Shown: positions 8,272-24,436 of the stretch, in pieces
Position numbering within the stretch: the first letter of the stretch is position 1
Layout of the letters: each line of letters starts with the position of its first letter
Assembly: GCF_013201545.1 (NCBI RefSeq)
Contig: NZ_CP053746.1
Location: 3,003,001 to 3,067,000, forward strand
Source: Pseudomonas graminis
GTDB lineage: Bacteria > Pseudomonadota > Gammaproteobacteria > Pseudomonadales > Pseudomonadaceae
Reading direction: 5' to 3'
Length of the DNA stretch: 64,000 nt
Made by a program: the position numbers and the translations under genes
The notes under the pieces: generated by a model
The model's database searches: none
Seen by the model: only the letters and a program-made list of their open reading frames with translations
What the model was told of the DNA's origin: nothing

Positions 8272-8316
8272 CTGTCATTCCTGACAGTAGTCAGTTTGGC
8301 CCATTCGGTTCTCAAT
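8272..8316 (+). promoter_or_regulatory. Palindromic promoter region, left copy
   Basis: CTGTCATTCCTGACAGTAG (8272-8290) contains the palindrome CTGTCA-N4-TGACAG. Together with the following 26 bases it matches, without gaps, the region at 24436-24392 on the other strand: 34 of 45 positions agree, including CGG at 8306-8308 and CTCAAT at 8311-8316. CTGACA could act as a -35 hexamer overlapped by an operator. It lies about 70 bases in front of the first Ig-like gene. Confidence 0.6.
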
Positions 8317-8385
8317 AAAGCCTTGTTGCGTTGCTTGGTCGGCGGGTGCCGGCTGAGAACGTTCATCGGACGAGGTGAGGACAGG

Positions 8386-9720
8386 ATGGCCAGGGATCGG
8401 AAAGCGCAGTCGCTAACACGACGAACAGGGGATGGATCAAAAGCACTGCTGGCAATGCCTGAAGTGCCGGCAATCATTGATCCAAACGATCCTGAAGGCT
8501 TGGTTTCCACCGGTACCCAGGTCAATGATCTAGAGGTGCTGGTGCCGCTTTGGCCGTTTCCGGCCGGACCGGGGGATATCGACCGACTGGACCTGTTCTG
8601 GAGCGGTGTGACCAGTGATACACCCGTGGCCACTGCGAATTTTCCTGGACCGGTCGATCCCGCAACCTTTCCTTTCTCCTTGAAAGCCGACAAAAACATT
8701 CTGCAACCGGACGGCCAGTACCAGCTCTGGTACACGGTCACTACTGACGCGAATGACACTGCACCTTCCGAGCGTCGTACCGTCACCATCGACACCCGCC
8801 CGCCCAGCTATAACCAGCAGTTGATGCCCTTGTTGTTACCTGATGATCTGGTGGGCGGGGTGATCAACGAAGCGTACCTGGCCAGTCATGGCGATCAGGT
8901 AGAGCTGCGCCTGCCGAGCCCTGTGTATCTCGACGCGAAAGAAGGCGATGTCGTTGACCTTTACTGGTCACAGGACAACCCGCCAACGACATCGGTTGTG
9001 GCCAGCGTGACGGTGACCCAGGCGCAGATCGAGGCAGACGATATCCGCATCAGCCTGCCCGGCGACGCCGTGCGCGCACCGGACCGGGATGGCAATTTCT
9101 ACGCCACTTACAAAGTACGAGACCGTGCCGGCAACGAGACCGACTCGTTCTCCCGTGAAACGCCCGCTGCCGTTGCGCTGAAGCCGCTGCCGGGGGGCGA
9201 TCTCCCCGAGCCCGATTTTCCGGAAGCGGATATCTACGGCTACATCAACTGCAATAACGAGCCCTGGAATGGCATTACGGTACGGGTCACCTTCGTTCGT
9301 AACCTGTTCGAGTACCAGGACCAGATCACACTGTATTGGCAGGGCTATCACACGTTGAACGGCCACGATCCGATCGCGGGCACCGAGGGCGTATTTGCCA
9401 GAACGGTCAGCGTGAAGAACGTGACAGACGGTTATCTGGACATTTTGGTCGAGCCTTTCATTCCCCACATCGAACCCATCCTTGAAGGATCGGCGCTGGC
9501 CAGTTACCGGTTGACGAAAGTCGGCGGGCACTCGGGCGCGTCCTACGAGGGGCTAGTGAAGATCAATCGCACGTTGCCCAGCGGCGAGATCTGCGGCCCC
9601 GTGATGCAGGCTGTTCAGTCTGGCTCGCGCAGGGAGGGCGGGTGCAAGGCCTGTCGTCTGTTCACTCGATTCATCGCCCGCGTGTTGCAGACGCTCGGGC
9701 GTGGCGGCAAAGGGCAGTAA
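8386..9720 (+). CDS. Ig-like repeat protein of the four-member paralogous set (1)
   Basis: 444 residues, no signal peptide (basic start MARDRKAQSLTRR). It consists of three to four beta-rich modules, each with a strand-type motif such as DRLDLFWSG, DVVDLYWSQ or DQITLYWQG followed about 60 residues later by YxVxDxAGN or a similar strand; DRAGNETDSF is typical of bacterial Ig/cadherin-like folds. The C-terminus is unlike the rest: GEICGP, GGCKACRLF and a basic helix FIARVLQTLGRGGKGQ with clustered Cys. ATG 8386 has GAGGACAGG ahead. It probably forms an operon with the next gene (60-base gap). A cell-surface or matrix role is likely by fold; the export route is unknown. Confidence 0.75.
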   Translation: MARDRKAQSLTRRTGDGSKALLAMPEVPAIIDPNDPEGLVSTGTQVNDLEVLVPLWPFPAGPGDIDRLDLFWSGVTSDTPVATANFPGPVDPATFPFSLKADKNILQPDGQYQLWYTVTTDANDTAPSERRTVTIDTRPPSYNQQLMPLLLPDDLVGGVINEAYLASHGDQVELRLPSPVYLDAKEGDVVDLYWSQDNPPTTSVVASVTVTQAQIEADDIRISLPGDAVRAPDRDGNFYATYKVRDRAGNETDSFSRETPAAVALKPLPGGDLPEPDFPEADIYGYINCNNEPWNGITVRVTFVRNLFEYQDQITLYWQGYHTLNGHDPIAGTEGVFARTVSVKNVTDGYLDILVEPFIPHIEPILEGSALASYRLTKVGGHSGASYEGLVKINRTLPSGEICGPVMQAVQSGSRREGGCKACRLFTRFIARVLQTLGRGGKGQ

Positions 9721-9780
9721 CGCTGGAAACCCAAGACGCGCCAGGCGGGATAGGCGCGAGTCAACTCAAGGAGAAAAGAC

Positions 9781-11799
9781 ATGAGCAACTTATCAAGCAA
9801 GCAGACCCGTGTGCTGGCCAGTGCACTGGCGCGTGCCGTCAACCAGCAGGACCAGGCCAGTAAGAAACGCCTGTCTACACTAGCGAACCTGAGTGCGCCG
9901 ATTGCGCCGGTCTGGTGGGGCGGCGACCCTGCCTTCGCAGGCCTGGTGCCTCGGGATGAGCAGGAAAAGGACATGCCGATCAACATCCCCCAGTGGCCTA
10001 ACGGCGCAGGCCAGGGTGAGAACGACTACCTTCAGTTCGAGTGGAAACTGTCAACCTCGGGGACGTGGCAGAGTGCCCAGGGCGTGATCCCGATTGCAGG
10101 TCCATTGCAACCCGGTGACTTCCCCATGGAGCTGCAGTTGAGCAAATCCAACTTTGCTGTTCAAGGCACCTTCGACTTGCGCTACACCGTCACGAACGAG
10201 GCGGGCAATACCGCAGAATCGGATATTACCCAATTCATCATTGACAAGACTGCACCCAACTATGGTCAGGCGCCGGATGCGGCGACGTTTGTAGACCCTG
10301 TCGTCATCAGCGACGGCATCACACAGGATTACCTGGATGCCCATGGCGGGCTGGAGCTGGTCATCCCGGCCTATCAAGACGAACAGCCGGGCGATAACCT
10401 GGAGGTTTATGTTCATGAGGTCGGCACAAGCCCGACTAAGCCAGTGTTTACCGGGGTGATTGATTCGAGCCGGCAGATCATGGTACCGGCTGATGCCTTT
10501 TCCGGTTTGCTGGATGGCCTCATCTATGTGTCCTACCGACTGGTCGACAAGGTGGGTAACAAAGGCGCTCCCGCGGATAACGCGACAGCCGGCCTCTTTC
10601 TCAATCCGCTTCCGATTGCTCCACTGGCCGCACCCAGCGTGCCCAAAATCGTGGATGACAGCGTTCTGCAACTTGCCGACATTGATCTGGTAAATGTCGC
10701 CTTGGTTGAAATTGATCCGTACCCGAACGCGCTTGAAAACGACCTTCTCGTTCTCACTTGGGGCAGTGCGGCACTCAAGGTGACTCACAGGATCACGGAC
10801 CCTTTTGCGACGATCTTCCTCAATGTTCCCTACGAAACCATACTGAAGCCTGCCTATGGCACGGCGACCACGGTGCTGCCGACCCCGGTGAGCTACGTCG
10901 TCGAGCGTGGCGACAAAACGTTCGCCTCGGACACCGCCACCATCAATGTGGATTTCTTCGTCCCTGGACCCGTGAACCCGGATCGGCCGGATCCAGTAAA
11001 CCCCGACCTGCCAAGAGTCACGGTAAAGGGCGCGGTTTCTACAGTCCCTAACGTGCTGACGGATGTCGACGTCGGCGGCGACGTTACGGTAACGCTCAAG
11101 CTGTACGACCCTATCGGGACCGGCGAGGAGATGGTCCTGTTTTGGGGTGATTCCACGAAAGAGGTCGCCAGGCTCAGCCCTGTAGTGGGGACGGCGGGTG
11201 ATGACTACGATTTCGTTCTGGATTGGGACGCGATCAAGGACCTGCCCAGCAGCACGGCAGTGCCGGTGTTCTATACCGTTGGGCGTATTACTCCCCCCGG
11301 CAATATCGAGGCCTGCGTGCCGACTTTGGTAGATGTCAGCGCAGCGCTGCCGATCAAGCTCGCCAATCCCGAGTTTCCCCTCGCGGCCCGGGCGCCGGAC
11401 GGAACACCCATTCTCAACTGCAGTACGCACTTCGGCCCTGAACAGTTGGTTCGTGTGCGCATCCCTGCAAATCCAAACCTGCAGGGTGGTGAAACGCTTG
11501 ACTTCACTTGGCAGTGCTACACCGACAGAGCAGGGACACAACCGGCGGGCGCCGCGTCGACATTCTCGAAGACCATCACTGCGGAGCAGGTCGCTGACGG
11601 TTTTACATTCGATCAAGGGCCGTTTGATGAGTACGTCCTGCCAACCGGCTTGAACGGGTCGATCAGAGTGACGTATGTGTCTGTTACCACGCCGCCGATG
11701 CAGGGGGAGACGCTGATCAGAGCATCGGGTCTGAACGCAGCGGGCCAATGTCCGCCTAATACCCTTCGTGCATTTGGGGCGGGTGGATGCGGCTGTTAA
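9781..11799 (+). CDS. Ig-like repeat protein of the paralogous set (2)
   Basis: 672 residues, no signal peptide. Five to six modules with the same pattern as the upstream paralogue: long strands with NLEVYVHE, DLLVLTWGS, EMVLFWGDS and TLDFTWQCY, and YRLVDKVGN / YTVTNEAGN near module ends. A proline-rich linker (PGPVNPDRPDPVNPDLP) lies near residue 400. The very end is QCPPNTLRAFGAGGCGC, a Cys/Gly tail that parallels the Cys-rich end of the upstream gene. Start ATG 9781 follows AAGGAGAAAAGAC. The operon closes with the terminator at 11856. The function is not known; sequence and context suggest a surface or secreted adhesin-like protein. Confidence 0.75.
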   Translation: MSNLSSKQTRVLASALARAVNQQDQASKKRLSTLANLSAPIAPVWWGGDPAFAGLVPRDEQEKDMPINIPQWPNGAGQGENDYLQFEWKLSTSGTWQSAQGVIPIAGPLQPGDFPMELQLSKSNFAVQGTFDLRYTVTNEAGNTAESDITQFIIDKTAPNYGQAPDAATFVDPVVISDGITQDYLDAHGGLELVIPAYQDEQPGDNLEVYVHEVGTSPTKPVFTGVIDSSRQIMVPADAFSGLLDGLIYVSYRLVDKVGNKGAPADNATAGLFLNPLPIAPLAAPSVPKIVDDSVLQLADIDLVNVALVEIDPYPNALENDLLVLTWGSAALKVTHRITDPFATIFLNVPYETILKPAYGTATTVLPTPVSYVVERGDKTFASDTATINVDFFVPGPVNPDRPDPVNPDLPRVTVKGAVSTVPNVLTDVDVGGDVTVTLKLYDPIGTGEEMVLFWGDSTKEVARLSPVVGTAGDDYDFVLDWDAIKDLPSSTAVPVFYTVGRITPPGNIEACVPTLVDVSAALPIKLANPEFPLAARAPDGTPILNCSTHFGPEQLVRVRIPANPNLQGGETLDFTWQCYTDRAGTQPAGAASTFSKTITAEQVADGFTFDQGPFDEYVLPTGLNGSIRVTYVSVTTPPMQGETLIRASGLNAAGQCPPNTLRAFGAGGCGC

Positions 11800-11855
11800 G
11801 TGAGTGAGCTCAACTTGAGATCGAATGTACAGATTCTTTAGTTGGGGTGATAAAA

Positions 11856-11890
11856 GACAAGGCCGCGCTAAACGGCCTTGTCGTTTTCTC
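11856..11890 (+). terminator. Rho-independent terminator after the left Ig-like operon
   Basis: GACAAGGCCG (11856-11865) pairs perfectly with CGGCCTTGTC (11873-11882) around loop CGCTAAA, followed by GTTTTCTC. It separates the Ig-like operon from the autotransporter gene. Confidence 0.85.
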
Positions 11891-11935
11891 AGGCTTGTTT
11901 CCGCATTTTTACGATGAGCGGTAGTTAATGCTAAT

Positions 11936-11975
11936 TGTAGGAAACTACGCTCAATAGGTTAGGAAACGTCCTACA
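11936..11975 (+). promoter_or_regulatory. Repeated GTAGGAAAC / TTAGGAAAC sites upstream of the autotransporter
   Basis: GTAGGAAAC (11937-11945) and TTAGGAAAC (11959-11967) are direct repeats 22 bases apart. The second continues into GTCCTAC, forming TAGGA-N4-TCCTA (11960-11973). The outer hexamers TGTAGG and CCTACA are also palindromic. Such paired, helically phased sites are typical for NarL/LuxR-type response regulators (RcsB-like boxes). The distance to the autotransporter start is about 95 bases. The binding protein is unknown. Confidence 0.45.
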
Positions 11976-12069
11976 CGAATAACAATTTGAAGAATGTAGT
12001 CTTCGCGCCTTTGTCCTGCGGAGCTTCTCTCTACTCCGTGGGAATGGCGATATTCCCAAGGAGCTAGGC

Positions 12070-15000
12070 ATGGCTGCGTCGCGTTTCACACACTCTCGTT
12101 ATTTCAACCCCTCAACCTTTATTTCCCTCGCGCTGTGCATAAGCACCGCCGCCCAGGGCCGCACACTGTCGCCTGACGAATCTGCGGTGGTTAACCAGGG
12201 CGACACGCCCGAAGCCTGGACGTTGGCGCCCGGTTCCTCGCTGACGGTGAGCAGCGGCGCCCAAGCCCTGACGATTTTCGGCGGTGGCGCAGGTGCCGTG
12301 GTCAATTTCAATGAGGGCAGTTCAACCACAGGCATCAATCTCAGCGCAGCGGGCGCCGTGGCGAACGTCAACGGTGCCAGCGTTAATGCCGCCGGCAATT
12401 CGACCGCCTTGATGCTCGGCGACAGCCAGGCGGTCCTGACGAACGCTACCATTACCAGCGGCACCGGCCTCGGTCTCAGTGGTGCACAGTTTCAAGGCGG
12501 CACTGGCAGCGCGTTCCAGATCAATGGGGGCACCATCAGCGGTGGCGCGGGGGGCGCGACGCTTTCCTCCCGCAGTACGCTGGACGCAACGGGCGCCGTG
12601 ATCACCGGCACCGGCGCAAACAGCTACGGGGTCCGCGGTTTCGGCTCGGACATTTCCCTGCGCGGCAGTACCGTCACCGGCGGCTTGAACGGCCTCGTCT
12701 ATCGGGTGGATACGGCCAATGTGCGCCAGGGTACGGTCAATATCGAAGGCTCACATATAGAAGGTACCAACGGTGCCGCGATTCTGGTCAATGGCCAGGG
12801 CGGGGGGCTGGTCGCCAACTTCAATCTGCTCAATGGCACAACCCTTACCGGTGGCAACGGCAACGTTTTGGAAGTTACCAATACGGCGACGGCGAATGTG
12901 CTGCTGCAAAACAGTGAAGTGACCGGTAATTTCGGCCTCTCCAACGGCAGCATTGCCAACCTGACCTTCGATCAGGGCCGGTTGATCGGTAACGTTTCGG
13001 CGGATGCCACCAGCAGCGGCACCCTGGCCCTGAACAATAACTCGGCGCTCACGGGCGATGTCACCGGTATTGATACGGTTAGTCTGAATGCGAGTTCCAT
13101 TACCGGAAACGTGACCTCGGCCAGCAACGCCGGCGTGGTTTCGCTGGCTAACGGGTCAGTGCTGGAAGGCAACGTCAACAGCGACAACGTCAGCCTGGAT
13201 GCCAGTCAGATGAAGGGCGACATCACGTCGATGAGCAGTGCCGGCGTCGTATCGCTCGTCGGCAGTTCAGTGCTGGAAGGCAACGTCAACGGCGACAACA
13301 TCAGCCTGGATGCCAGTCAGATGATTGGCGACATCACGTCGACGAGCAGCGCAGGCGTAGTGTCCCTGGTAGCAGGCTCCGTACTGGAGGGTAATGTCAG
13401 CAGCGATAACGTCAGCCTGAACGCCAGTTCAATGAAGGGTGACATCACGTCGACCAGCAACACCGGCGTTGTATCGCTCATCGCAGGGTCCACTGTAGAA
13501 GGTCAGGTTATCGGTGACAACGTCAGTCTTGACGCCAGCTCGGTTGTCGGCGATGTCACTTCGGCCAGCGGAGCAGGTGCCGTCAAGCTGGTTCGCCGCT
13601 CTCTGGTGAGAGGCAACGTAAACAGCAACAACGTCAGTCTCGACGCCAGTTCAATAACGGGCAATGTCACGTCGACGGGCAATGCAGGCGTGGTGTCCCT
13701 GGTGGCAGGCTCCGTGCTGGAGGGTAATGTCGGCAGCGACAACGTCAGTCTCGACGCCAGTTCGATCGTCGGCAATGTCACGTCGACCGGCGGTGGAGGT
13801 GTGCTGAGGTTGCTGGGCGGCTCAACGCTGAAAGGCGATGTCAGCAGCAGTAATGTCAGCCTGGATGCCAGTTCGATGTTCGGCGATATCACCTCAGGTG
13901 GCGGGGTTGTTTCGCTGGCCAACAACTCGGTGTTCACCGGCAACTTGATCAATGTCGACAGCGCCACCCTCGCTGGTTCCTCCACCTGGGATATGGTGGG
14001 TTCCAATACCCTCAACTCCCTTGCGATGAATGACAGCACGGTGAGGTTTGGCGCAACCAACGCGTTCTACCAGCTCACCGTCGGCGCGCTGTCCGGCAAC
14101 GGCACCTTTGTCATGGACGCCGATTACCTCACCAACGAGCACGACCTGCTCAATGTGACCGGCTCTGCAACGGGCAGCCATACCTTGCTGATCGCAGGTT
14201 CCGGCGTCGACCCGACGTCACCACAGCCCTTGACCGTTGTTCAAACTGCAGGCGGTAACGCGACCTTTGCGCTGGCGGGCGACGGTGCGGTTGACGTGGG
14301 GACCTATTCCTATCAACTGACGTCGGCCAGCAATGGCGCAGGCGGAACCGACTGGTTTCTGGACCCGAATACCGCGACGATCAGCCCCGGCACACGCTCG
14401 GTGCTGGCGTTGTTCAACACGGCGCCGACGGTTTGGTACGGCGAGCTGACGTCGTTGCGCAGCCGCATGGGCGAACTGCGCTTCAACGGCGGCAAGTCCG
14501 GTGGCTGGGTGCGCACTTACGGGAACAAATACAACGTCGACGAAGCGTCGGGTGCGGGGTATCAGCAGACGCAGCAGGGCCTGTCCCTCGGCGCCGATGC
14601 TCCGTTGCCAGTCGGCGACGGGCAGTGGCTGGTGGGTGTACTGGCCGGGCACAGCAAGTCCGATCTTGATCTCAGTCGCGGTACGTCGGGCACGGTGAAG
14701 AGCTATTACGCCGGGGTGTATACCACCTGGCTGGATCAGGCCAGCGGTTACTATTTTGACGGCGTCCTCAAGTACAACCGCTTCCGTAACGACTCGAAAG
14801 TCAGCATGAGCGACGGCACGCGTTCCAAGGGCGACTATGACAACGCCGGCGTGGGCGGTTCGGTGGAATTTGGCCGGCACATCAAGCTCGATAACGGCTA
14901 CTTCGTCGAACCCTTCACGCAACTGTCCGCGGTCGTCATCGGCGGCAAGGACTACGATCTGGACAACGGCATGCAGGCCGAGGGCGACCGGACACGCTCG

Positions 15001-15294
15001 TTGCTGGGCAAAGTGGGTGTGACGGCCGGGCGCAACTTCACCCTGGACAGCGGCAGTGTCGTGCAGCCCTATGTGCGAGTGGCCGGTGCCCATGAGTTCG
15101 CCAAAAACAACGAAGTGCAGGTCAACAACAACGTCTTCAACAACGACCTGTCCGGCTCGCGAGGTGAGTTGGGGGCGGGTGTAGCGGTGGCGTTCTCCGA
15201 CAGCCTGCAGGTGCATGCTGATTTCGATTACTCCAACGGTGAGAGCATTGAACAGCCGTTCGGGGCGAATGTGGGGTTGCGGTATAGCTGGTGA
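12070..15294 (+). CDS. Autotransporter (type Va) with 37-residue repeats
   Basis: 1074 residues. Signal peptide at residues 1-31 (ends AAQG). The passenger is a Gly/Ser/Asn/Thr-rich beta-helix of pertactin type (GGTISGGAGGATLS, ITGTGANSYGVRG). Residues about 337-612 contain eight units of the type VSLDASSxxGDITSxxxAGVVSLxxGSVLEGNVxSDN: seven full 37-residue copies (111 bp each in DNA) and a shortened one. The C-terminal 270 residues form the autotransporter barrel (TAPTVWYGELTSLRSRMGEL to the terminal NVGLRYSW, ending in the aromatic residue needed by the Bam machinery). AAGGAG lies six bases before ATG 12070. It has its own leader and a likely response-regulator site. Probably an adhesin or autoaggregation protein; no protease triad is evident. 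Confidence 0.9.
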   Translation: MAASRFTHSRYFNPSTFISLALCISTAAQGRTLSPDESAVVNQGDTPEAWTLAPGSSLTVSSGAQALTIFGGGAGAVVNFNEGSSTTGINLSAAGAVANVNGASVNAAGNSTALMLGDSQAVLTNATITSGTGLGLSGAQFQGGTGSAFQINGGTISGGAGGATLSSRSTLDATGAVITGTGANSYGVRGFGSDISLRGSTVTGGLNGLVYRVDTANVRQGTVNIEGSHIEGTNGAAILVNGQGGGLVANFNLLNGTTLTGGNGNVLEVTNTATANVLLQNSEVTGNFGLSNGSIANLTFDQGRLIGNVSADATSSGTLALNNNSALTGDVTGIDTVSLNASSITGNVTSASNAGVVSLANGSVLEGNVNSDNVSLDASQMKGDITSMSSAGVVSLVGSSVLEGNVNGDNISLDASQMIGDITSTSSAGVVSLVAGSVLEGNVSSDNVSLNASSMKGDITSTSNTGVVSLIAGSTVEGQVIGDNVSLDASSVVGDVTSASGAGAVKLVRRSLVRGNVNSNNVSLDASSITGNVTSTGNAGVVSLVAGSVLEGNVGSDNVSLDASSIVGNVTSTGGGGVLRLLGGSTLKGDVSSSNVSLDASSMFGDITSGGGVVSLANNSVFTGNLINVDSATLAGSSTWDMVGSNTLNSLAMNDSTVRFGATNAFYQLTVGALSGNGTFVMDADYLTNEHDLLNVTGSATGSHTLLIAGSGVDPTSPQPLTVVQTAGGNATFALAGDGAVDVGTYSYQLTSASNGAGGTDWFLDPNTATISPGTRSVLALFNTAPTVWYGELTSLRSRMGELRFNGGKSGGWVRTYGNKYNVDEASGAGYQQTQQGLSLGADAPLPVGDGQWLVGVLAGHSKSDLDLSRGTSGTVKSYYAGVYTTWLDQASGYYFDGVLKYNRFRNDSKVSMSDGTRSKGDYDNAGVGGSVEFGRHIKLDNGYFVEPFTQLSAVVIGGKDYDLDNGMQAEGDRTRSLLGKVGVTAGRNFTLDSGSVVQPYVRVAGAHEFAKNNEVQVNNNVFNNDLSGSRGELGAGVAVAFSDSLQVHADFDYSNGESIEQPFGANVGLRYSW
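13078..13910 (+). repeat. 111-bp tandem repeats in the autotransporter passenger
   Basis: Units start at 13078, 13189, 13300, 13411, 13522, 13633, 13744 and 13855, exactly 111 bases apart, so copy number can change without a frameshift. The last unit is shortened in its second half. DNA identity between neighbours is high in the GTCAGCCTGGATGCCAGT segment and lower elsewhere. Confidence 0.85.
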
Positions 15295-15299
15295 TGTCC

Positions 15300-15341
15300 G
15301 AGGCACCTTGTATCACCGCGCTGTCCGATACAAGGTGCCTC
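15300..15341. terminator. Hairpin between converging autotransporter and giant Ig-like gene
   Basis: GAGGCACCTTGTAT (15300-15313) and ATACAAGGTGCCTC (15328-15341) form a perfect 14-bp stem with a 14-base loop in the 61-base gap between two converging genes. No long T-run follows on either strand, so it may stop or insulate transcription in both directions only partly. Confidence 0.6.
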
Positions 15342-15355
15342 AACCTCAAAACAGC

Positions 15356-18300
15356 TTACATCGCGTGTGTGTGCGCATAGCTACCGAAATTTTCAAACTT
15401 GATGTCGAACGCAAGCTCATCCGACGTCACCAGATTTTTTACCCAGTTTTTGTAAAGCCCAGCTCCATCAGTGGACCACGAGTAAAATCTGGCTTCGCCT
15501 TGCGGCCACCGATTACCGTATTGAGCATGGATTTCACGCAGCTCGCCAAGGCTTGGAATCCGCTTTCCATTTGCAGCCGCCAGTTTCAGCCCTGCCTTAT
15601 AAGTAGTGTTGCCCAGCAAATGTACAAGGATCACTCCGGAAACACTGACTGGATAGCTACCGGACCGACCCTGGCTGTCGCGAACGGTAATGGTTGCGTT
15701 GCCGTTGCTCTGGGAATAGATCGTGCCGTCTCCCGCAACCTTGACGATCGCTGAATTGCTCGAAGTGTAGGTGTACGGTGGAGCACCACTGCTGGGGGTT
15801 CTTCGTGAGGTCGAGTTGGCGGGCCAGCTCACCGGATCAACCGACAGATCTGCGGTTGGCCGATAAAGTTTGCTGCTCAGTGCAACGGTAGACGGGTCGA
15901 TGACCAAAGGCGGCACCGGCGATTCCACCGTAAACGTCCGGACGTTGGACTCCGGCTCATCCCCGTACCGCGCAACGGCCTTGATGCTGTGCCCGCCCAA
16001 CGCCAGCCCGCTGACAGACTGGGTCCATTCACCCGCGCCTGTGACCGATACCTTGCCCTTGGAGGTGGAATTGTCGAACACTTCAACCTGCTGATTCGCG
16101 GCCGCATTGCCCTTGACCGTCACCGCTGTCTCGGTGGTTTTGCCTCCATTGGAAATCTCCTTCTGGGAATCCCGCACGCTCGTCACGGTAGGCACGGTTG
16201 CGGCAAGCACATTAACCGTCCAGGGCGATGAAACCGGGTTGCTGGCATAGAGCGCCTTGGCCGTGAGGCTGTGGCTGCCACTGCCCAAGCCACTGACCTG
16301 CCGCGACCAGTCGCCGTTCGCGTTCACGTCGGCAGTGCCTTTGGAGGTCGCTCCATCATATATTTCCACCGACTGATTGATCGACGCCTTGCCCGACAGG
16401 GTCAGGGTATTGGCGAACGTCGAGCCATTGTTGGCCACCGGCGTGCCGTTGGGTTCCACCACCTGAGTGATGGTCGGGCTTACGACAGCCGTGACCGTGA
16501 ACGTACGCACCGGTGATTCCGGGTTATTTGCGTAATTGGCGCGGGCTTTCATGGCATGCGCCGCCACGCTCAGACCGGTCAGGCTGAGGGTCCATTGTCC
16601 GCCCGCGTTGGCCCTGACGGTGCCTCGCGATGTTGTGCCATCGAAAATTTCCACCTCCAGATTCGCGTTGGCACTGCCCGTCAGTACCACGTTGGTGTCC
16701 ACGGTGAACCCGTTGGGCGGGATTTCGACGTTTTTCGAGTCCTTGATGGAGGTGATCGTTGGGGTGACAGCGGCAATGATGGTGAAACTGCGTACCGCCG
16801 ATTCGGCGCCCGCGCCGTACATGGCCTTGGCCTTCATGGCATGGGGCGCCACGCTCAAGCCAGTCAACAGCAATGACCAGTTTCCGTTGGCGTCCGCCGT
16901 GGCCGTGCCCTTGACGGTCGCGCCGTCAAGGACCTGGACATTCAGACCCATACTCGCCCTACCGGTCAGAGTAACTTGAGTATCAGCGGTTGAGCCGTTG
17001 TCAGGAATTTCCTGGCCTTGAGAATCCTTGATGCTGGTGATCGTTGGTGCAACCGAGGCTGTGACGGTAAAAGTCCTTACCAGCGATTCTTGTCCGCTGC
17101 CATACAGTGCTTTGGCCTTCACGGCATGCGCCGCCACGCTCAGACCGGTCAGGCTGAGCGTCCATTCTCCGGCTGCGTTGGCCCTGACTTTGCCTTGCGA
17201 TAGTGCGCCATCGAAAATTTCCACCTCCAGATTTTCGCTGGCACTGCCTGTCAGCACTACGTCGGTTTCCACAGTGAACCCGTTGGGTGGGATCTCGACG
17301 TTATTCGAGTCCTTGATGCTGGTGATCGTTGGGGCGACGGAGGCAATGATGGTGAAACTACGTACCGCCGATTCGGCGCCCGCGCCGTACACGGCTTTGG
17401 CTTTCATGGCATGGGACGCCACGCTCAAGCCAGTCAACAGCAATGACCACGTTCCGTTGGCGTCCGCCGTGGCCGTGCCCTTGACGGTCGCGCCGTCAAG
17501 GACCTGGATATTCAGACCCCTACTCGCCGCACCGGTCAGGGTGACTTGAGTATCAGCGGTTGCTCCTTTGTCAGGAATTTCCTGGCCTTGAGAATCCTTG
17601 ATGCTGGTGATCGTTGGTGCAACCGAGGCTGTGACGGTAAAAGTCCGTACCAGCGATTCTTGTCCGCTGCCATACAGTGCTTTGGCCTTCACGGCATGCG
17701 CCGCCACGCTCAGACCGGTCAGGCTGAGTGTCCATTGGCCACCGGCGTCAGCCTTTGCCGTGCCTATGACAGTAGCGCCATCGAGTATCTGCACGTCGAA
17801 GTTCGCCGAAGCGGCGCCCCTCAGCGTAACACTGGTATCAACGGTGTAACCACGATCCGGTATATCTGCGTTATTTGAATCCTCCACGCTAGTAATGGTG
17901 GGTATGACGTTTTGTGCCACTGTAACTGTCCACACGATGGATTCAGGCTGAGAGCCATACAGCGCTTTGGCCTTGAAGGGATGCGAGGCCACTGTCAGTC
18001 CCGAAACGGTCAACGACCAGGTGCCCGCGCTGTTGGTGCGCGCCGTGCCTTTGGAGGCGTTGCCGTCAAACAGTTCGATCTGCTGATCGGGACTGCCCTG
18101 GCCGGTGATCGTGACACTGGTTTCGACGGTGGTGCCGCCGTTGCTGACAGGTCCGCTGGAGTCAACCACCTGAGTGATGGTCGGTGTCAGGTTGGCTAGC
18201 ACTTCAAACCGGCGGGGCTGTGAAACCAGGCCGCTGCCGTCCAGGGCATGGGCAGTCACGCTGTAGTTTTTTATCTGCAATCCCGACAGGTTGGTGTTCC

Positions 18301-21007
18301 AGGCGCCGCTGCCATTTGCGCGGGCAGTGGTCAGGCGTGTGCTGCCATCGAGGATTTCAAGCTCAGCCTCCAGAGTGGACGTACCGGTTAGCGCGAGCTG
18401 GGTGTCGAAGGTGATCCCGCCCTCGGCGACTTCGCCTTTACTGTCCTTGACACTGACGATCTGCGGGCTGACCCAGTCGTGATGAAGCTTGAAGGTGTAG
18501 ACCGTTCGCGGAAGCGGCACGGCAGCACTCTCGCTGGCGACGCCGTCGAAGGCCACGTTGCAGATCACCGTCACGCGGGTGTCTTGCCCCAGCCGCTCCA
18601 GTTCAGTGCGCAAAACGCTTTGCGACAGGCCGGCAGTCGCCTGGGCACTGGTCAGCTCCACACCGTCGAGCAGCGTGATCGTGTGCAAACCGCCACTGCT
18701 CGTTTCCCCTTCGAGCCTGAACCACACGCGCTGCCCTGCAGCAATGAACGGCCATTTCGTAACGGTCGCAGTGCCATTGCCGGTGAAGGTTGCCAGATTG
18801 AGCGTCAGGGTCTGGCTATCGGCTTGGGTGATGACGGGGTGGGGCAGGTCTTTGTCGGGCTCACCGAACGGCAGCACCGGCAGGCGCAATATGTCCGACT
18901 GCTTCTCGGCCATGTAACGCTTGACCCGATAGCTGACACTGACGTCTCGGCCAATGTTGGCGCCGATCACTGGCGCGGGCACGGTGTATTCGACTTGCCC
19001 GCTGCTGCTGCCCGGTTTTTCCTGATCGGCGGGGGATCCTGTTCCCGGGGTACCCAACCACATGAGGGTCGCCAGATCCGCGTCCTCCATGCTGGCGTAG
19101 CTCACGCGTACGGTGACGCCATTCAATGCATCCATCGGATCGAGCACGCCATTGCTGGCCTGCAGCACGGTGGGGGCGGGAAGGTCGCCAATCAGTTTGC
19201 CAATGATCAGATTCAGCGTCGCCGAGTACTGGTAGGAGGCTGGCGAGCCGCGCCTTAGCGTGTACAGCACCCTCACTTCGTTGTTGATGTTGGGCTCGAC
19301 GATTGCGCGCGGGAGCGTGAAATCCACCGGTTTGCCGGCGATGGTGGTGGTGATGGGGATTGAGTCACTGCCACTGCCCTCCAGAGGAAGACCAAGCCAG
19401 TACCAGGTCAGGATGTCGCCGGCCAGCGTGCCGGTATAGCTGACCCGTAACGTGATGTCTCCCGGGTGCAGTTCGGGATCGAGTACGCCGGCCTCGGCTT
19501 CCAGGATGGAGGGGGCGGGCAGGGACGCCGAATGTTGCCCGACTCGCACGTGCAGGTGCTCCGAAACGCGGACATCCAGCACCTGCCAGGCGTCATTGGA
19601 AACCCGATAACTGACATCCAGCGTGCCGTTCTCCAGCGGGGCAATGTGCTCGCCCATCACCGGGATGTAGACCACATTTCCTGCCTCGTTGGCGGTGACG
19701 ATGTGCTGGGCTTCGTACAGGTAAGGCGTGCCATCCACCCGGGTTCCCAGCCAGATAAGATCGATCAGGTCGCCGTTGGCCATGTACTCGTACACCGGAA
19801 TTTCCACATGGGCACGTTCCTCCAGAGGGCTGAGCACATCGCCGATCAGCTCCAGAATGCTCGGAATTTTCAACGGTAGGGTGCCAGTGATGCGAGCTGG
19901 CGCGCGCTTGGAGGACTGCGGTGGATCACCGTTGGCTTTGGTCAGCACATAAGAGGCCTCGGCTTTCCCGTCGAGGAGCGCGCGCACCCGTGCATTGGGC
20001 ACGGTGGTGTCGTAGACGGACGGAATATTGCCCAGTACGACCGACTCGGTATACGTCAGTTCCTCACCTTGCGCCGTGGTCCCCAGCCAAGTCATGGTCA
20101 GCGTGTCACCGCGTTCGAAAGGGGCCCCGGATACGGGGATCTGTACCGTGACATCGGCGCTGGCGAGGGTGCCCAGATCAATAACGCCATTCAAGGCTTG
20201 CGCGATGATAGGTGCGTCCAGTTTCCAGGCGCCGGCCTCCACGGGCACCTTGGTTTGCAGGGACCAGTCGGTGGAAAAATTCCAGACCTCGTCGTACACC
20301 TGATAGTGCACCAGCAGGCTCTCGGCATCGCCGGCCGCCAGCACCGTGGCCTGATCGACGATGATCTCAATCGGGTCACTGCCCGCTGCTTCGTCTTCGC
20401 TGATTTGTCGCCGCAGCGATACCGATCCCCATCGCAGTTCGAGCGTGTCGCGCGCGGCGCGTCCGGGGTAGGTGGCAATGGTGACCGGAATGCCTTCAGC
20501 GGCCGACTCGGCGTCCACGCCGTTTTCGATCACATCCTGTGGCAGTTGCGGCGCCGCCAGTTCTGAGTGACCAGGCAGGTGCGGGTCGCGGTCAATGCCC
20601 GCCGGCCGGTCGAGCTTGACCCTCAGGCGCAACGGCACCGAGTCTTCCGTCGAGGTGGCGCCAGCACGGGTCAGGCGATACATGACAGCTTCGGCCCACC
20701 CCGCAACGGCGGCACTGCCAGGCAGAAAGAAAATGATGCGCTTGTCCAGATCGGCAGCGACGACGTCGTGATCTGCGATCATTACACCGTCCCAGTACAC
20801 CTCGATTCGATCCCCCTCCTGCATGCGCAGCCAGGGATCAACGGCGCTCAACATGCCGCTGGGATTGTCCTCCACGATGGCAATGTTGATCCCGCCGTCA
20901 CCGTGTTCAACGGGCGTCACCATCCCGCTGATCCATAACGGCCGTAGCGCCATGACAGAGTAGTCACGTTCCAGCGGGGGAAAGAGGGTGCGTGAGTTGC
21001 GTTTCAT
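15356..21007 (-). CDS. Giant Ig-like repeat protein of the paralogous set (4) with adhesin-like tip
   Basis: 1883 residues, no signal peptide. Residues about 1-840 contain Ig-like modules of the same kind as the other three paralogues (LELRWGS, LTMTWLGTT, DLIDLIWLGTR, TWYWLGLPLEG). The segment PGHSELAAPQ...DVIENGVDAESAAEGIPVTI aligns with the neighbour gene. Residues about 845-1695 are nine repeats of about 95 residues beginning PTITSIKDS and containing LEVEIFDG, GTATADANGTWSL and AMKAKAxYG. A Big_2-like domain follows (about 1700-1770), and the last 110 residues (RIPSLGELREIHAQYGNRWPQ, FYSWSTDG) resemble the C-type-lectin-like tip of enterobacterial invasin-type adhesins. AAGGACG precedes ATG 21007. 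It is the second gene of an operon with the 24355 gene (258-base gap). Confidence 0.8.
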   Translation of the reverse strand: MKRNSRTLFPPLERDYSVMALRPLWISGMVTPVEHGDGGINIAIVEDNPSGMLSAVDPWLRMQEGDRIEVYWDGVMIADHDVVAADLDKRIIFFLPGSAAVAGWAEAVMYRLTRAGATSTEDSVPLRLRVKLDRPAGIDRDPHLPGHSELAAPQLPQDVIENGVDAESAAEGIPVTIATYPGRAARDTLELRWGSVSLRRQISEDEAAGSDPIEIIVDQATVLAAGDAESLLVHYQVYDEVWNFSTDWSLQTKVPVEAGAWKLDAPIIAQALNGVIDLGTLASADVTVQIPVSGAPFERGDTLTMTWLGTTAQGEELTYTESVVLGNIPSVYDTTVPNARVRALLDGKAEASYVLTKANGDPPQSSKRAPARITGTLPLKIPSILELIGDVLSPLEERAHVEIPVYEYMANGDLIDLIWLGTRVDGTPYLYEAQHIVTANEAGNVVYIPVMGEHIAPLENGTLDVSYRVSNDAWQVLDVRVSEHLHVRVGQHSASLPAPSILEAEAGVLDPELHPGDITLRVSYTGTLAGDILTWYWLGLPLEGSGSDSIPITTTIAGKPVDFTLPRAIVEPNINNEVRVLYTLRRGSPASYQYSATLNLIIGKLIGDLPAPTVLQASNGVLDPMDALNGVTVRVSYASMEDADLATLMWLGTPGTGSPADQEKPGSSSGQVEYTVPAPVIGANIGRDVSVSYRVKRYMAEKQSDILRLPVLPFGEPDKDLPHPVITQADSQTLTLNLATFTGNGTATVTKWPFIAAGQRVWFRLEGETSSGGLHTITLLDGVELTSAQATAGLSQSVLRTELERLGQDTRVTVICNVAFDGVASESAAVPLPRTVYTFKLHHDWVSPQIVSVKDSKGEVAEGGITFDTQLALTGTSTLEAELEILDGSTRLTTARANGSGAWNTNLSGLQIKNYSVTAHALDGSGLVSQPRRFEVLANLTPTITQVVDSSGPVSNGGTTVETSVTITGQGSPDQQIELFDGNASKGTARTNSAGTWSLTVSGLTVASHPFKAKALYGSQPESIVWTVTVAQNVIPTITSVEDSNNADIPDRGYTVDTSVTLRGAASANFDVQILDGATVIGTAKADAGGQWTLSLTGLSVAAHAVKAKALYGSGQESLVRTFTVTASVAPTITSIKDSQGQEIPDKGATADTQVTLTGAASRGLNIQVLDGATVKGTATADANGTWSLLLTGLSVASHAMKAKAVYGAGAESAVRSFTIIASVAPTITSIKDSNNVEIPPNGFTVETDVVLTGSASENLEVEIFDGALSQGKVRANAAGEWTLSLTGLSVAAHAVKAKALYGSGQESLVRTFTVTASVAPTITSIKDSQGQEIPDNGSTADTQVTLTGRASMGLNVQVLDGATVKGTATADANGNWSLLLTGLSVAPHAMKAKAMYGAGAESAVRSFTIIAAVTPTITSIKDSKNVEIPPNGFTVDTNVVLTGSANANLEVEIFDGTTSRGTVRANAGGQWTLSLTGLSVAAHAMKARANYANNPESPVRTFTVTAVVSPTITQVVEPNGTPVANNGSTFANTLTLSGKASINQSVEIYDGATSKGTADVNANGDWSRQVSGLGSGSHSLTAKALYASNPVSSPWTVNVLAATVPTVTSVRDSQKEISNGGKTTETAVTVKGNAAANQQVEVFDNSTSKGKVSVTGAGEWTQSVSGLALGGHSIKAVARYGDEPESNVRTFTVESPVPPLVIDPSTVALSSKLYRPTADLSVDPVSWPANSTSRRTPSSGAPPYTYTSSNSAIVKVAGDGTIYSQSNGNATITVRDSQGRSGSYPVSVSGVILVHLLGNTTYKAGLKLAAANGKRIPSLGELREIHAQYGNRWPQGEARFYSWSTDGAGLYKNWVKNLVTSDELAFDIKFENFGSYAHTHAM
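16471..17640 (-). repeat. 570-bp higher-order tandem duplication inside the giant gene
   Basis: Each 570-bp unit encodes two different ~95-residue Ig repeats (types SIKDSQGQEIPD and SIKDSNNVEIPP). The segment CCGCCACGCT recurs at 16561, 17131 and 17701, exactly 570 bases apart. The two full copies are nearly identical over long stretches, indicating recent duplication or gene conversion. Confidence 0.8.
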
Positions 21008-21174
21008 GGTGAGCGTCCTTGTTCATTTCTGAAAGTTAGCGTGTCAATCGTCGAAGGCGCGGCGGATCGTGATCGGGTGATGATTGCTGCGTGGGTTAAC
21101 CCCGCTTGGACGATCCATACACAGCCGGCGGGGCTGACGAATAATCAACCTGAATAGAAGGTTGGTTTCCACTA

Positions 21175-21222
21175 GCTTCGCAGTCGTCTTGGGCCCATGC
21201 CTGACGGGTGCGACTGCGAAGC
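21175..21222. other. 12-bp inverted repeat between the two minus-strand Ig-like genes
   Basis: GCTTCGCAGTCG (21175-21186) and CGACTGCGAAGC (21211-21222) form a perfect stem with a 24-base loop, directly downstream of the first minus-strand Ig-like gene. There is no T-run. It may act as an mRNA-stabilising or attenuating hairpin inside the operon. The rest of the 258-base gap shows nothing notable. Confidence 0.5.
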
Positions 21223-21265
21223 CTTTGTAAGCAAAATGCTAAGTGCTCTGCTTCTGTCCGACGCG

Positions 21266-24200
21266 CTATATAAAAAGTCTGAATTGTCTTAGCACCGAGT
21301 GGGAGCCCCCACTTCTAAGCTGCACGAAATACTCCCCCGTCACTGAAAGCGTCGGCGTGACTGACCATGCGCCACTGGCGCCGACTATGACGGTAGCAAG
21401 CTGTTGCTGTACACCGTTCACGAGCGCAATAAGAACGCCCGTCTGATTAACGAATGAGACACCGGATATGGTCAGTATGGGATCGCGGGTTAAAGTGTTT
21501 TCAGGAATTTCTACCCCATTAGAGTCCCTGATGCTGATGATCGTCGGGAACGCATCAAAGACGCTAAAGCTACGTACTGCCGACTCGCCGCCGTTGCCGT
21601 ATTGCGCCTTGGCTTTGATCGCATGAGCCCCATCCGCCAGACCGGTGATTGCGAAGGTCCATTGTCCGTTGGTGTTGGCCATGGCTTTGCCTTTAGAAGC
21701 ACTGCCATCGAAGACTTCCACTTCGAGCCCGGCGCTTGCAGCACCCGTCACCGTCACACTCGTTTCGACCGTTATCCCACCGGCCGGAATTTCAGCGCCG
21801 CTGGCGGCTTTGATACTGGAGATAGTGGGTGCGACGACGGCGGCCACAGTAAACCCACGCACTGCCGACTCAACGCCACCGCCATATAAAGCCTTGGCTT
21901 TGATCGCATGAGCCGCAACCGCCAGACCGGTAATTGCGAAGGTCCATTGTCCGTTGGTGTTGGCCGTGGCTTTGCCTTTAGAAGCAATGCCATCGAAGAC
22001 TTCCACTTCGAGCCCGGCGCTTGCAGCACCCGTCACCGTCACACTCGTTTCGACCGTTATCCCACCGGCCGGAATTTCAGCGCCGCTGGCGGCTTTGATA
22101 CTGGAGATAGTGGGTGCGACGACGGCGGCCACGGTAAACCCACGCACCACCGACTCCGCGCCATCGCCGTAAAGCGCTTTGGCTTTCAAGGCATGCGAGC
22201 CTACCGCCAGATCAGTGAGTTCCTTAGTCAACGTTCCGTCAGCGCCGGCCGTCGCCTGGCCTTTTGACTGCGCACCATCAAAGAGCTCCACCGCCTGACT
22301 GGCTGGGGCAGTGCCGCTGAGGGTCACGCGGGTATCGGCGGTGACACCACCGTCGGGAATATCCTGCCCGTTGGAGTCCTTGATGCCAGTAATCGCTGGC
22401 GGGTCCAGCACAATCGGCTTGCCGACATTAAAGTGGTTGATGTCTGAATAGCTGCTCCTCCCACCGAAGCGTTCTACCCAGTAGGACGCGTCAACGGTGC
22501 CGCCGTCGTTGCTGGAAATGTCTTCGGGGTAAAGGCTGAAGACCACCGGTTTGTTCACTGTGGCCGACGTGAGCGTGATGAAGTCCTGGACCTCGCCGCC
22601 CAGGCTGCCTTTCCACAGGTACACGACCTTGTCGAGCGCCGCCATCTCCGGGTAAACCGGCACGGTCAGGGTGGTTCCCGGCAAGGCCGGATCGAGCACG
22701 CCGTTCACTACGTCCTTGACCTCGGGTGCTGGCAGTTCGGCACGCGCTTCGCCTACGGTGAGCGTTGCCGACAGGGCGGACTTGCGTTCGATAATCGTGC
22801 CGTTGTCGTCGTGGGTCAGAAGGAAGTGCAACACCAGCGTCCCACCGTCAATTGGTGTCAGGTGCGTACCGGGAACCGTGAAATTGAGCGCGTATTTATT
22901 GGTGGCCTCTCGATTGCTGATGACATGAGCGGGCAATTCCGGATCGTAGATCGTCAAGTCAGGGCGCGTGCCGATCCATTTCAAGGTGATCACATCGCCC
23001 GCCGCCATGCTGTCATCCCACGGGATTTGTACGGTGGTCTGCGGCAGGTCGGGATCGAGTGCGCCTTGCTGGGCATCCAGCGCGACGGGCGCCGCCATGC
23101 GCACGGTTTCCCCGATGACGTTGATGAATGCACCTTTGGAGGCGGCTTTCAACGTGTCTGTGGTGTCCTTCAAGTCGTAGGTAAACACAGCCTGGGTCTT
23201 GGCCAGTCGCCGGATCTGCGCATTGGGCACCAGTATCTCGAAGATATGCCCCACGCGGTCGATCGTGATCGGTTCCGCTTCGTACAGATGGGGTTCGCCG
23301 TCTGCGGTGGTCCCGGTTAATTTTAAGAAGATCTTGTCACCCACCGCGAAGTCGGCTCTGAGGGGGGCAAGGCTTTTTAAAGCACCCTTGCCCAGAGAGG
23401 CTTCCAGCTGTGCCGTCAGCTTTTTGCCCAGCAAGGCAGTGAATTGAGCGAAAAATTGGAAGCGACCCATCGCCACAACCTGGAGAGTCACCGGGTTGTT
23501 GCCTAGCGTGTCGAGGTCCAGCACGTTGTTGATAGCTTCATCAACAAAGGGGGCCTCCAACCGTGAGTTGCCGGTATCCACTACGATGCGCTTTTCAGCC
23601 GCCCAGTCCTCGGAGCGGTTCTTGACCACGTCATACACCTCGTAGGTCACCGCCAGGCCATCCGCGCCGGAGTCTCCTGCCGCCAGAATGACCGACTCCT
23701 CGACCATTATTTCTATGGGGTTGTTGACCTCGGGTTCTGTGACTGTATGTTCCACAAACCAGCCACCCCAGGAAAGCCTGACATTGTCCTTCTCGCTCAT
23801 GTCCGGGTACGGTTCGATCGTGACGGGTACGCCCGCCGCGGCGGCGTCTGCATCCACGCCGTTATTGATGACGTCCTCAGTCAACGTCAGTTGCAACGCC
23901 GAGTGCCCAGGGGTGTCGCCGTCCTGATCCTGGCCGCCGGGGCGGGTGAGCTTGACCCATATCCGGGATTCGCTGGACGTCTCCGGAGACTGGCCGACTC
24001 GGGTCACGACGTATTTCACGGTGTGTGCGCCGGGGGCAAGGCGGGCGGCGTTGATAAAGGTAGTGACCCGTTGCCCGACCTCCGCTGCTGCGATGAACTC
24101 GGTCGCAACGGGCACGTCATCGAGCAACACCTTGACGCTGTCGCCTTCGGACATTACGGACCAGACCGGTAGATAGAGCTGCAAACCTTGCTCTGGAAAG

Positions 24201-24355
24201 TTATCCATCGCAGCGCCATGGTTGATCCCCAGGAGCCTTTCCCCGGACTGCGCCGGCGGGACCGGCAGCGGACCTGTGTTGCCGGGGATCTCCAGATCGA
24301 TGAGCGCGTCGGGATGGGAGGTGTTCGGATTCAGGTCTTGCGACGATGTGGCCAT
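21266..24355 (-). CDS. Ig-like repeat protein of the paralogous set (3)
   Basis: 1029 residues, no signal peptide (start MATSSQDLNPNTSHPDALID). The first ~650 residues carry Ig-like modules with NVRLSWGGW, VITLKWIGTR and KVVYLWKGSL. PGHSALQLTLTEDVINNGVD matches the giant neighbour almost motif by motif. Residues about 653-1029 are four ~95-residue repeats of the PTISSIKAASG type, the middle two nearly identical in DNA. It ends VLRQFRLFI without a lectin-like tip, so it looks like a shorter sister of the 1883-residue protein. CAGGAGT lies upstream of ATG 24355, and the shared palindromic promoter region lies about 40-80 bases upstream. It is the first gene of the right-hand operon. Confidence 0.8.
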   Translation of the reverse strand: MATSSQDLNPNTSHPDALIDLEIPGNTGPLPVPPAQSGERLLGINHGAAMDNFPEQGLQLYLPVWSVMSEGDSVKVLLDDVPVATEFIAAAEVGQRVTTFINAARLAPGAHTVKYVVTRVGQSPETSSESRIWVKLTRPGGQDQDGDTPGHSALQLTLTEDVINNGVDADAAAAGVPVTIEPYPDMSEKDNVRLSWGGWFVEHTVTEPEVNNPIEIMVEESVILAAGDSGADGLAVTYEVYDVVKNRSEDWAAEKRIVVDTGNSRLEAPFVDEAINNVLDLDTLGNNPVTLQVVAMGRFQFFAQFTALLGKKLTAQLEASLGKGALKSLAPLRADFAVGDKIFLKLTGTTADGEPHLYEAEPITIDRVGHIFEILVPNAQIRRLAKTQAVFTYDLKDTTDTLKAASKGAFINVIGETVRMAAPVALDAQQGALDPDLPQTTVQIPWDDSMAAGDVITLKWIGTRPDLTIYDPELPAHVISNREATNKYALNFTVPGTHLTPIDGGTLVLHFLLTHDDNGTIIERKSALSATLTVGEARAELPAPEVKDVVNGVLDPALPGTTLTVPVYPEMAALDKVVYLWKGSLGGEVQDFITLTSATVNKPVVFSLYPEDISSNDGGTVDASYWVERFGGRSSYSDINHFNVGKPIVLDPPAITGIKDSNGQDIPDGGVTADTRVTLSGTAPASQAVELFDGAQSKGQATAGADGTLTKELTDLAVGSHALKAKALYGDGAESVVRGFTVAAVVAPTISSIKAASGAEIPAGGITVETSVTVTGAASAGLEVEVFDGIASKGKATANTNGQWTFAITGLAVAAHAIKAKALYGGGVESAVRGFTVAAVVAPTISSIKAASGAEIPAGGITVETSVTVTGAASAGLEVEVFDGSASKGKAMANTNGQWTFAITGLADGAHAIKAKAQYGNGGESAVRSFSVFDAFPTIISIRDSNGVEIPENTLTRDPILTISGVSFVNQTGVLIALVNGVQQQLATVIVGASGAWSVTPTLSVTGEYFVQLRSGGSHSVLRQFRLFI
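21541..22115 (-). repeat. Two near-identical 285-bp tandem repeats
   Basis: GGCGCTTGCA recurs at 21731 and 22016, exactly 285 bases (95 codons) apart, and the flanking sequence is almost unchanged over the whole unit. These are the second and third 95-residue repeats of the 1029-residue protein. Confidence 0.8.
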
Positions 24356-24391
24356 GGCGGGTATGACTCCTGTCGGTGGATGCCAGGAGTC

Positions 24392-24436
24392 ATTGAGCGC
24401 CGGATCAGGGAAGTTGGCTACTGTCAGAAATGACAG
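24392..24436 (-). promoter_or_regulatory. Palindromic promoter region, right copy
   Basis: On the minus strand CTGTCATTTCTGACAGTAG (24436-24418) differs from the left copy at one of 19 positions, and conserved bases continue to CTCAAT (24397-24392) with identical spacing. It lies directly in front of the first minus-strand Ig-like gene. The same element thus heads both outer operons of the accessory block. Confidence 0.6.

Follow-up and report, generated by a model that had tools for sequence, protein, structure and literature searches.

A genus-wide promoter module with a putative LuxR-type activator box at both ends of a block of convergent operons in Pseudomonas graminis

Two convergent operons of Pseudomonas graminis are preceded by closely similar palindromic promoter regions, which raises the question of whether one regulator switches both operons together and, if so, which regulator this might be. 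The window that we analyzed is a stretch of 64,000 nucleotides (positions 3,003,001 to 3,067,000 of NZ_CP053746.1), part of a 5.52 Mb chromosome assembled as one contig. A sequence-only reading of this window had described the regions at 8272-8316 (+) and 24436-24392 (-) as identical, with 34 of 45 positions in ungapped agreement. A recount gave the same 34 of 45, and GTAG and CTCAAT are the same in both copies; the word identical does not hold for the 16-bp palindromes, which are one central base apart (TTCC vs TTTC). When the first 45-mer was compared with every position of the window on either strand, the second-best match after its partner reached 25 of 45 positions. A search for CTGTCA-N4-TGACAG that allowed up to 2 mismatches returned just these two copies, both exact; shuffled versions of the window gave a mean of 2.3 matches at this tolerance, so that, exactness aside, a count of two is unremarkable.

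Each copy precedes the first gene of an operon, as had been claimed. On the left, the 16-bp palindromic box (CTGTCATTCCTGACAG, an exact palindrome at 8272..8287, + strand), a putative activator site, abuts a predicted -35 hexamer, TAGTCA (8288..8293, +; positions 17-22 of the 105-site alignment described below), and is followed by a predicted -10 hexamer, CTCAAT (8311..8316, +), with a predicted start near 8323. The ATG at 8386 opens a 444-aa gene (8386..9720, +), after which come a 672-aa gene (9781..11799, +) and an autotransporter with pertactin and beta-barrel domains that the left copy also faces (1074 aa, 12070..15294, +). On the right, the corresponding putative activator box (CTGTCATTTCTGACAG, likewise an exact palindrome, 24421..24436, - strand), -35 hexamer TAGCCA (24415..24420, -) and -10 hexamer CTCAAT (24392..24397, -; predicted start near 24385), both hexamers being placed by the same alignment, precede the ATG at 24355 of a 1029-aa gene with Ig-like and Ca_tandemer repeats (21266..24355, -), which is followed by an 1883-aa gene with several Ig-like repeats (15356..21007, -). 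The operons are convergent, with 61 bases between them. The description of both as Ig-like stands for the right operon; the two smaller left-hand proteins have weak Ig-like matches that score below the Pfam cut-offs. Both operons encode giant proteins of predicted secreted type.

The promoter module is real, genus-wide and placed in front of many different genes. The strict motif CTGTCATTNNTGACAGTAG (the palindrome with TT and TAG) has 4 copies in the 5.52 Mb chromosome versus about 0.0002 expected, and the bare exact palindrome has 7 versus 0.26 expected, both expectations being computed from the base composition of the window; with 1 mismatch the palindrome occurs at 16 chromosomal places, versus 4 for the reversed control. 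The sequence-only reading had named many unrelated copies as the outcome that would count against it, and the genome-wide search that it proposed yielded these four strict copies instead. Of the two strict copies outside the window, one precedes the gene for a 144-aa protein that belongs to no known family and the other that for an 80-aa acyl carrier protein. Near-matching boxes precede two DUF2599 genes, an exact palindrome without TAG precedes an amidase gene, and one of the seven exact palindromes (G000:C1:4326245) lies, by eye, apparently within coding sequence. In the available text of PMC3510237, DUF2599 is given as the C-terminal domain of halovibrin HvnA of P. aeruginosa. Across 199 Pseudomonas genomes, the strict motif was found in 48, with up to 17 copies each (15-17 in three genomes) and none for the reversed control, and a relaxed box was found in 108, with one control match. 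A scan of named genomes returned at least 120 stretches with the motif; among the matches listed, 107 are labelled Pseudomonas and 13 are not. The literal forms of the box were found in no paper in the open-access literature searched. Several boxes lie inside a few kilobases of each other, in tandem or divergently, in loci L237, L247, L252 and L254, an arrangement that suggests duplicated promoter and gene modules.

To describe the promoter, we aligned 105 non-redundant sites from among the matches listed, with near-duplicates and sites too near locus ends removed; this set dropped 10 of the 13 non-Pseudomonas loci, and the other three (L128, L131 and L147) may remain in it. A -10-like NANNNT begins 24 bases past the palindrome in 47 of the 105 sites and one base further in 19, any other offset accounting for at most 13. 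The six bases that abut the palindrome read TAG-A/C-C-A/G (TAGNCR), a poor -35 separated from the -10 by exactly 17 bp; TAG was fixed by the search pattern, and the bases after it were free. As the palindrome is directly followed by TAGNCR, it resembles an activator site placed ahead of the -35. The proposal that CTGACA serves as an overlapping -35 fails here, as it leaves 24 bp to CTCAAT and the genus-wide -10 lies 17 bp past TAGNCR. CTCAAT itself, also proposed as a promoter element, coincides with the genus-wide -10 position, and we infer that it is the -10 of both window promoters. Conservation beyond the 16-bp core is mostly confined to the -35 and -10 positions. The central bases are TTTC; the search pattern fixed the first two, and the following T and C are found in 99 and 82 of the 105 sites, respectively; this asymmetry gives the site a direction relative to the promoter. 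The centre of the dyad falls at about -43.5 from a start site that is predicted by the alignment and unmapped. Lux boxes are classically centred at -42.5, just upstream of the -35, and a box that abuts the -35, with 17 bp from there to the -10 and its dyad near -43.5, has the geometry of a class II activator site.

Most sites are intergenic and point at genes. Among the matches listed, with all 13 non-Pseudomonas loci and sites near locus ends excluded, 92 of 113 Pseudomonas sites fall in no ORF of 120 aa or longer; of positions drawn at random from the same loci, 785 of 5650 (14%) did so. The downstream ORF closest to the box is on the same strand as the box in 84 of 106 sites, again among the matches listed. 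First downstream genes were picked mechanically, and 19 cluster representatives, chosen by hand, were scanned against Pfam. The matches included DUF2599, RHS-repeat, TcdB/SpvB-type, ricin-type lectin and type II/IV secretion ATPase families, as well as thioredoxin-like, glycosyltransferase, family 3 glycosidase, beta-propeller and carbohydrate-binding proteins; nine of the 19 had no Pfam match.

The block between the two window copies could also be followed in relatives. Genomes G184 and G152 have the same flanking genes as P. graminis, with a HAD hydrolase and ABC transporter on one side and a zinc-binding dehydrogenase and tail-specific protease on the other, the genes between these flanks vary, and the outermost gene on either side is preceded by a box. 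In G195, the box at the dehydrogenase end is kept and the HAD-side box precedes the second gene instead; the block of G141, which contains several boxes, bears only a partial resemblance. The contents range over Ig-like proteins, autotransporters, a protein with RCC1 repeats in G152 and, by sequence clustering, halovibrin-related genes in G195 and G152. Genes are swapped in this syntenic block while the boxes and their -10s persist.

The idea that one regulator may act on both operons, which had been raised from the two copies in the window, is well supported by the genus-wide module of box and promoter at fixed spacing and by the boxes at both block ends in G184 and G152. As to its family, the box is a 16-bp palindrome, at the lower end of the 16-20 bp of LuxR-type boxes, with CTG...CAG ends (CTGTCA-N4-TGACAG), and it has a fixed place just upstream of the -35, with one main -10 offset and a predicted dyad at -43.5. 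Since it shares its 16-bp CTG...CAG frame with the CviR/CsuR box of Chromobacterium, it is probably a LuxR-type activator box. A LuxR-family dimer would bind the palindrome immediately upstream of the weak -35 and would contact RNA polymerase, making a class II activator promoter of each copy, so that both convergent operons would be turned on at once. At least two other genes with strict boxes, those for the stand-alone acyl carrier protein and the 144-aa protein, would be co-activated, and the near-matching boxes would bring in the two DUF2599 (halovibrin-like) genes. Activation itself is predicted from sequence, and we hold this account as a whole, with class II LuxR-family-activated promoters at both copies, to be the best explanation at somewhat better than an even chance. 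If it is correct, one short sequence predicts which uncharacterized secreted-protein genes of a Pseudomonas genome are switched together.

The resemblance to the Chromobacterium system is close but incomplete. According to the available text of PMC12114271, CviR binds CTGNCCNNNNGGNCAG and the csuI copy of the site is CTGTCCGATAGGACAG. The consensus of that 16-bp palindrome, CTGNCC-N4-GGNCAG, differs from the present box at the innermost position of both half-sites, and the csuI copy is one base off per half-site outside N4. Furthermore, the csuI site is reported in the same text to lie further upstream of the start than the window boxes do, and the present box is absent from the 30 Pseudomonas luxI loci that we fetched.

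Which LuxR-type protein might read the box? The P. graminis genome encodes two proteins with an Autoind_bind domain, and the candidate is the one next to mtnC, a CviR-like LuxR solo at chromosome position 3547576-3548289. Both of its domains score over the Pfam cut-offs (Autoind_bind 30.1 bits, GerE 56.5 bits), and its closest solved relatives by sequence are CviR (2e-12), SdiA and RhlR. The predicted fold (mean pLDDT 83) matches chains of CviR, RhlR, LasR and SdiA at E-values of about 1e-10 to 4e-11. The whole-chain TM score is only about 0.4-0.5, because the arrangement of the domains differs or is uncertain, and the CviR ligand-binding domain alone matches at 0.63 of the target. The gene order at this locus (L342) is mtnC, regulator, DUF3509, ankyrin. 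This matches the setting of the subgroup F LuxR solos of fluorescent pseudomonads, whose genes have methionine genes on their upstream side and an ankyrin gene on their downstream side (Bez et al. 2021, PMC8546723); the available text of that study limits subgroup F to P. viridiflava and names no target or box, whereas the candidate locus scored in 28 of 199 genomes here. Full-length relatives occur in 20 genomes, P. graminis included, and mtnC or mtnD adjoins the candidate-type gene in 30 of 30 fetched loci, with DUF3509 in 28 and ankyrin in 24. In G020, which is labelled as the same species as the window's genome, the mtn-locus LuxR is only 59% identical, luxI is present and there is no strict box.

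In the box-rich lineage of P. gingeri, P. agarici and QS1027, the same locus encodes a protein of 116-124 aa that consists of the DNA-binding domain alone, 56-59% identical to the P. graminis candidate over 79 residues; the one short form scanned, from G141, has GerE and no Autoind_bind match. Among 199 genomes, 28 reached at least 119 bits with the HTH profile of the candidate, and in eight of these the protein is a short form without room for a sensor domain. Thirteen of the 14 genomes with at least three strict boxes carry this HTH at that threshold, versus 15 of the 185 others (Fisher 5.9e-12), a P value that overstates the correlation, as the lineages are few and non-independent and the threshold was drawn after the scores were seen. 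A shorter and weaker relative (91-106 bits) occurs in 30 further genomes, which have few boxes; two loci of this group, L370 (G032) and L371 (G143), were fetched and, like L369 (G108), have short GerE-only relatives beside mtnD and DUF3509 genes in other lineages. The dN/dS ratios in the nine pairs compared (0.03-0.22) are well below 1, and full and short forms therefore both look maintained. Several genomes speak against the candidate. G182 encodes it at 98% identity, yet contains a single relaxed box and none of the strict form. Of the 28 genomes that carry the candidate, 12 lack a strict box, and in G112, with its four strict boxes, no such protein reaches the threshold. In addition, 85 of the 108 relaxed-box genomes lack the candidate at the threshold used. 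Autoregulation of the candidate was rejected, as its 21 fetched loci contain no exact box and a single 2-mismatch match.

The association of the box with the mtn locus is correlative, comes from few lineages and has exceptions, and the regulator is accordingly named only as a tentative candidate; that the mtn-locus LuxR solo is the regulator in this genome is possible, at slightly below an even chance. Were it so, the boxed genes would be the first targets for an orphan group of LuxR solos and would form a natural set of cases in which one regulon occurs with and without a quorum-sensing sensor domain. We further consider, as a speculative and somewhat unlikely extension, that a LuxR-type regulon has outlived its sensor: one box and a locus-conserved DNA-binding domain would run a secreted-protein repertoire that changes across Pseudomonas (adhesins, halovibrin-like, lectin, RHS and Tc-like proteins), the AHL-type sensor being kept in some lineages as a luxI-less eavesdropper and lost in another, where the bare domain would serve a larger regulon.

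The mtn-locus protein could instead be a bystander in the same lineages, with a core response regulator or some other regulator binding the box. Relaxed boxes reach far beyond the range of the candidate, and apparent GerE response regulators have strong reciprocal best hits in the genomes compared. By eye, and apart from the candidate, the GerE proteins of P. graminis with reciprocal best hits in all three box-rich genomes compared comprise four apparent response regulators, one MalT-like protein and one protein of 131 aa; the last has partial matches only, and the matches of the candidate in two of the three genomes are to the HTH only. This comparison covered 70 of 89 GerE matches and 11 of the 13 from P. 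graminis, and an earlier one covered 56 of 89. Core regulators, however, leave the concentration of strict boxes in genomes with the mtn-locus HTH unexplained. The Pho box is a direct repeat, whereas the present box is an inverted one. The PprB regulon of P. aeruginosa has features in common with the present one: in the available text of PMC3510237, PprB also raises halovibrin-like hvnA and is linked to the adhesin BapA, although its control of hvnA is reported to be indirect. PprB was rejected because its putative site, given as GGCTAATAC in the available text of PMC6821963, is unrelated to the box. We regard a reading by a core or other regulator as unlikely.

A classical lux box read by an AHL-dependent LuxI/LuxR pair would fit the CT-N12-AG frame of the box. 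At least one Autoind_bind protein scored over the cut-off in 48 of 50 hand-picked genomes, and luxI is present in box-rich G044, G070, G079, G112, G141 and G169. However, the search that found luxI in 41 of 199 genomes returned none in P. graminis, and the palindrome occurs in none of 30 fetched luxI loci (30 of 55 matches, one per genome, with about 1.5 kb on each side), three of which have 2-mismatch matches. In addition, the luxI search gave no match in G068, G085, G115 and G152, which have 3-5 strict boxes and whose sole Autoind_bind match is the divergent mtn-locus LuxR. As P. graminis has no luxI match, the 30 fetched luxI loci have no box and no single canonical LuxR is common to the box-rich genomes examined, AHL-dependent control was set aside as improbable. 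Finally, the several copies per genome, 15-17 in three of them, might suggest that a small dispersed or mobile repeat left the two window copies behind, but this is highly improbable given the intergenic, gene-facing sites and the confinement of conservation past the core largely to the -35 and -10.

Other regulators were also considered. The second LuxR solo of P. graminis (LuxR1, 4364501) lies, by eye, between a GST-like gene and a set of aminotransferase-, dihydrodipicolinate-synthase- and haem-oxygenase-like genes (L031, chromosome 4359000-4371000); it was rejected as a universal regulator because its matches in G044, G141 and G195 are only 24-37% identical, with one reciprocal best hit, at 24%. 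In P. gingeri and QS1027 genomes (L248:5794-6594, L251:4878-5678, L139 and L060), the gene for a 266-aa LuxR-type protein, R266, immediately precedes a box. The 13 GerE loci of P. graminis gave only HTH-length or weak matches to R266 of G141 and G070, with no full-length relative, and R266 was also rejected. An AurF-like N-oxygenase (mgoC/pvfB) is the link to Pvf/Mgo signalling; P. graminis has one weaker AurF-family match (E 7.7e-16), whereas 21 other genomes score about 150 bits or higher. Box-rich G068 lacks an AurF-family match, and this signalling system has no clear support. CRP/FNR, LysR, LexA and Pho were set aside on site geometry alone.

The right-hand promoter contains one further element. 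A perfect 9-bp inverted repeat (TGACTCCTG...CAGGAGTCA) at 24364-24392 (-) begins with the final base of the -10 and ends ahead of the start codon, and its 3' arm contains a Shine-Dalgarno-like AGGAG. If the RNA begins before the predicted start, the repeat is predicted to fold at -14.7 kcal/mol (z -2.6); an RNA begun at the predicted start does not form this hairpin (z +0.6). Similar inverted repeats were seen by eye in L241, L246 and L243.
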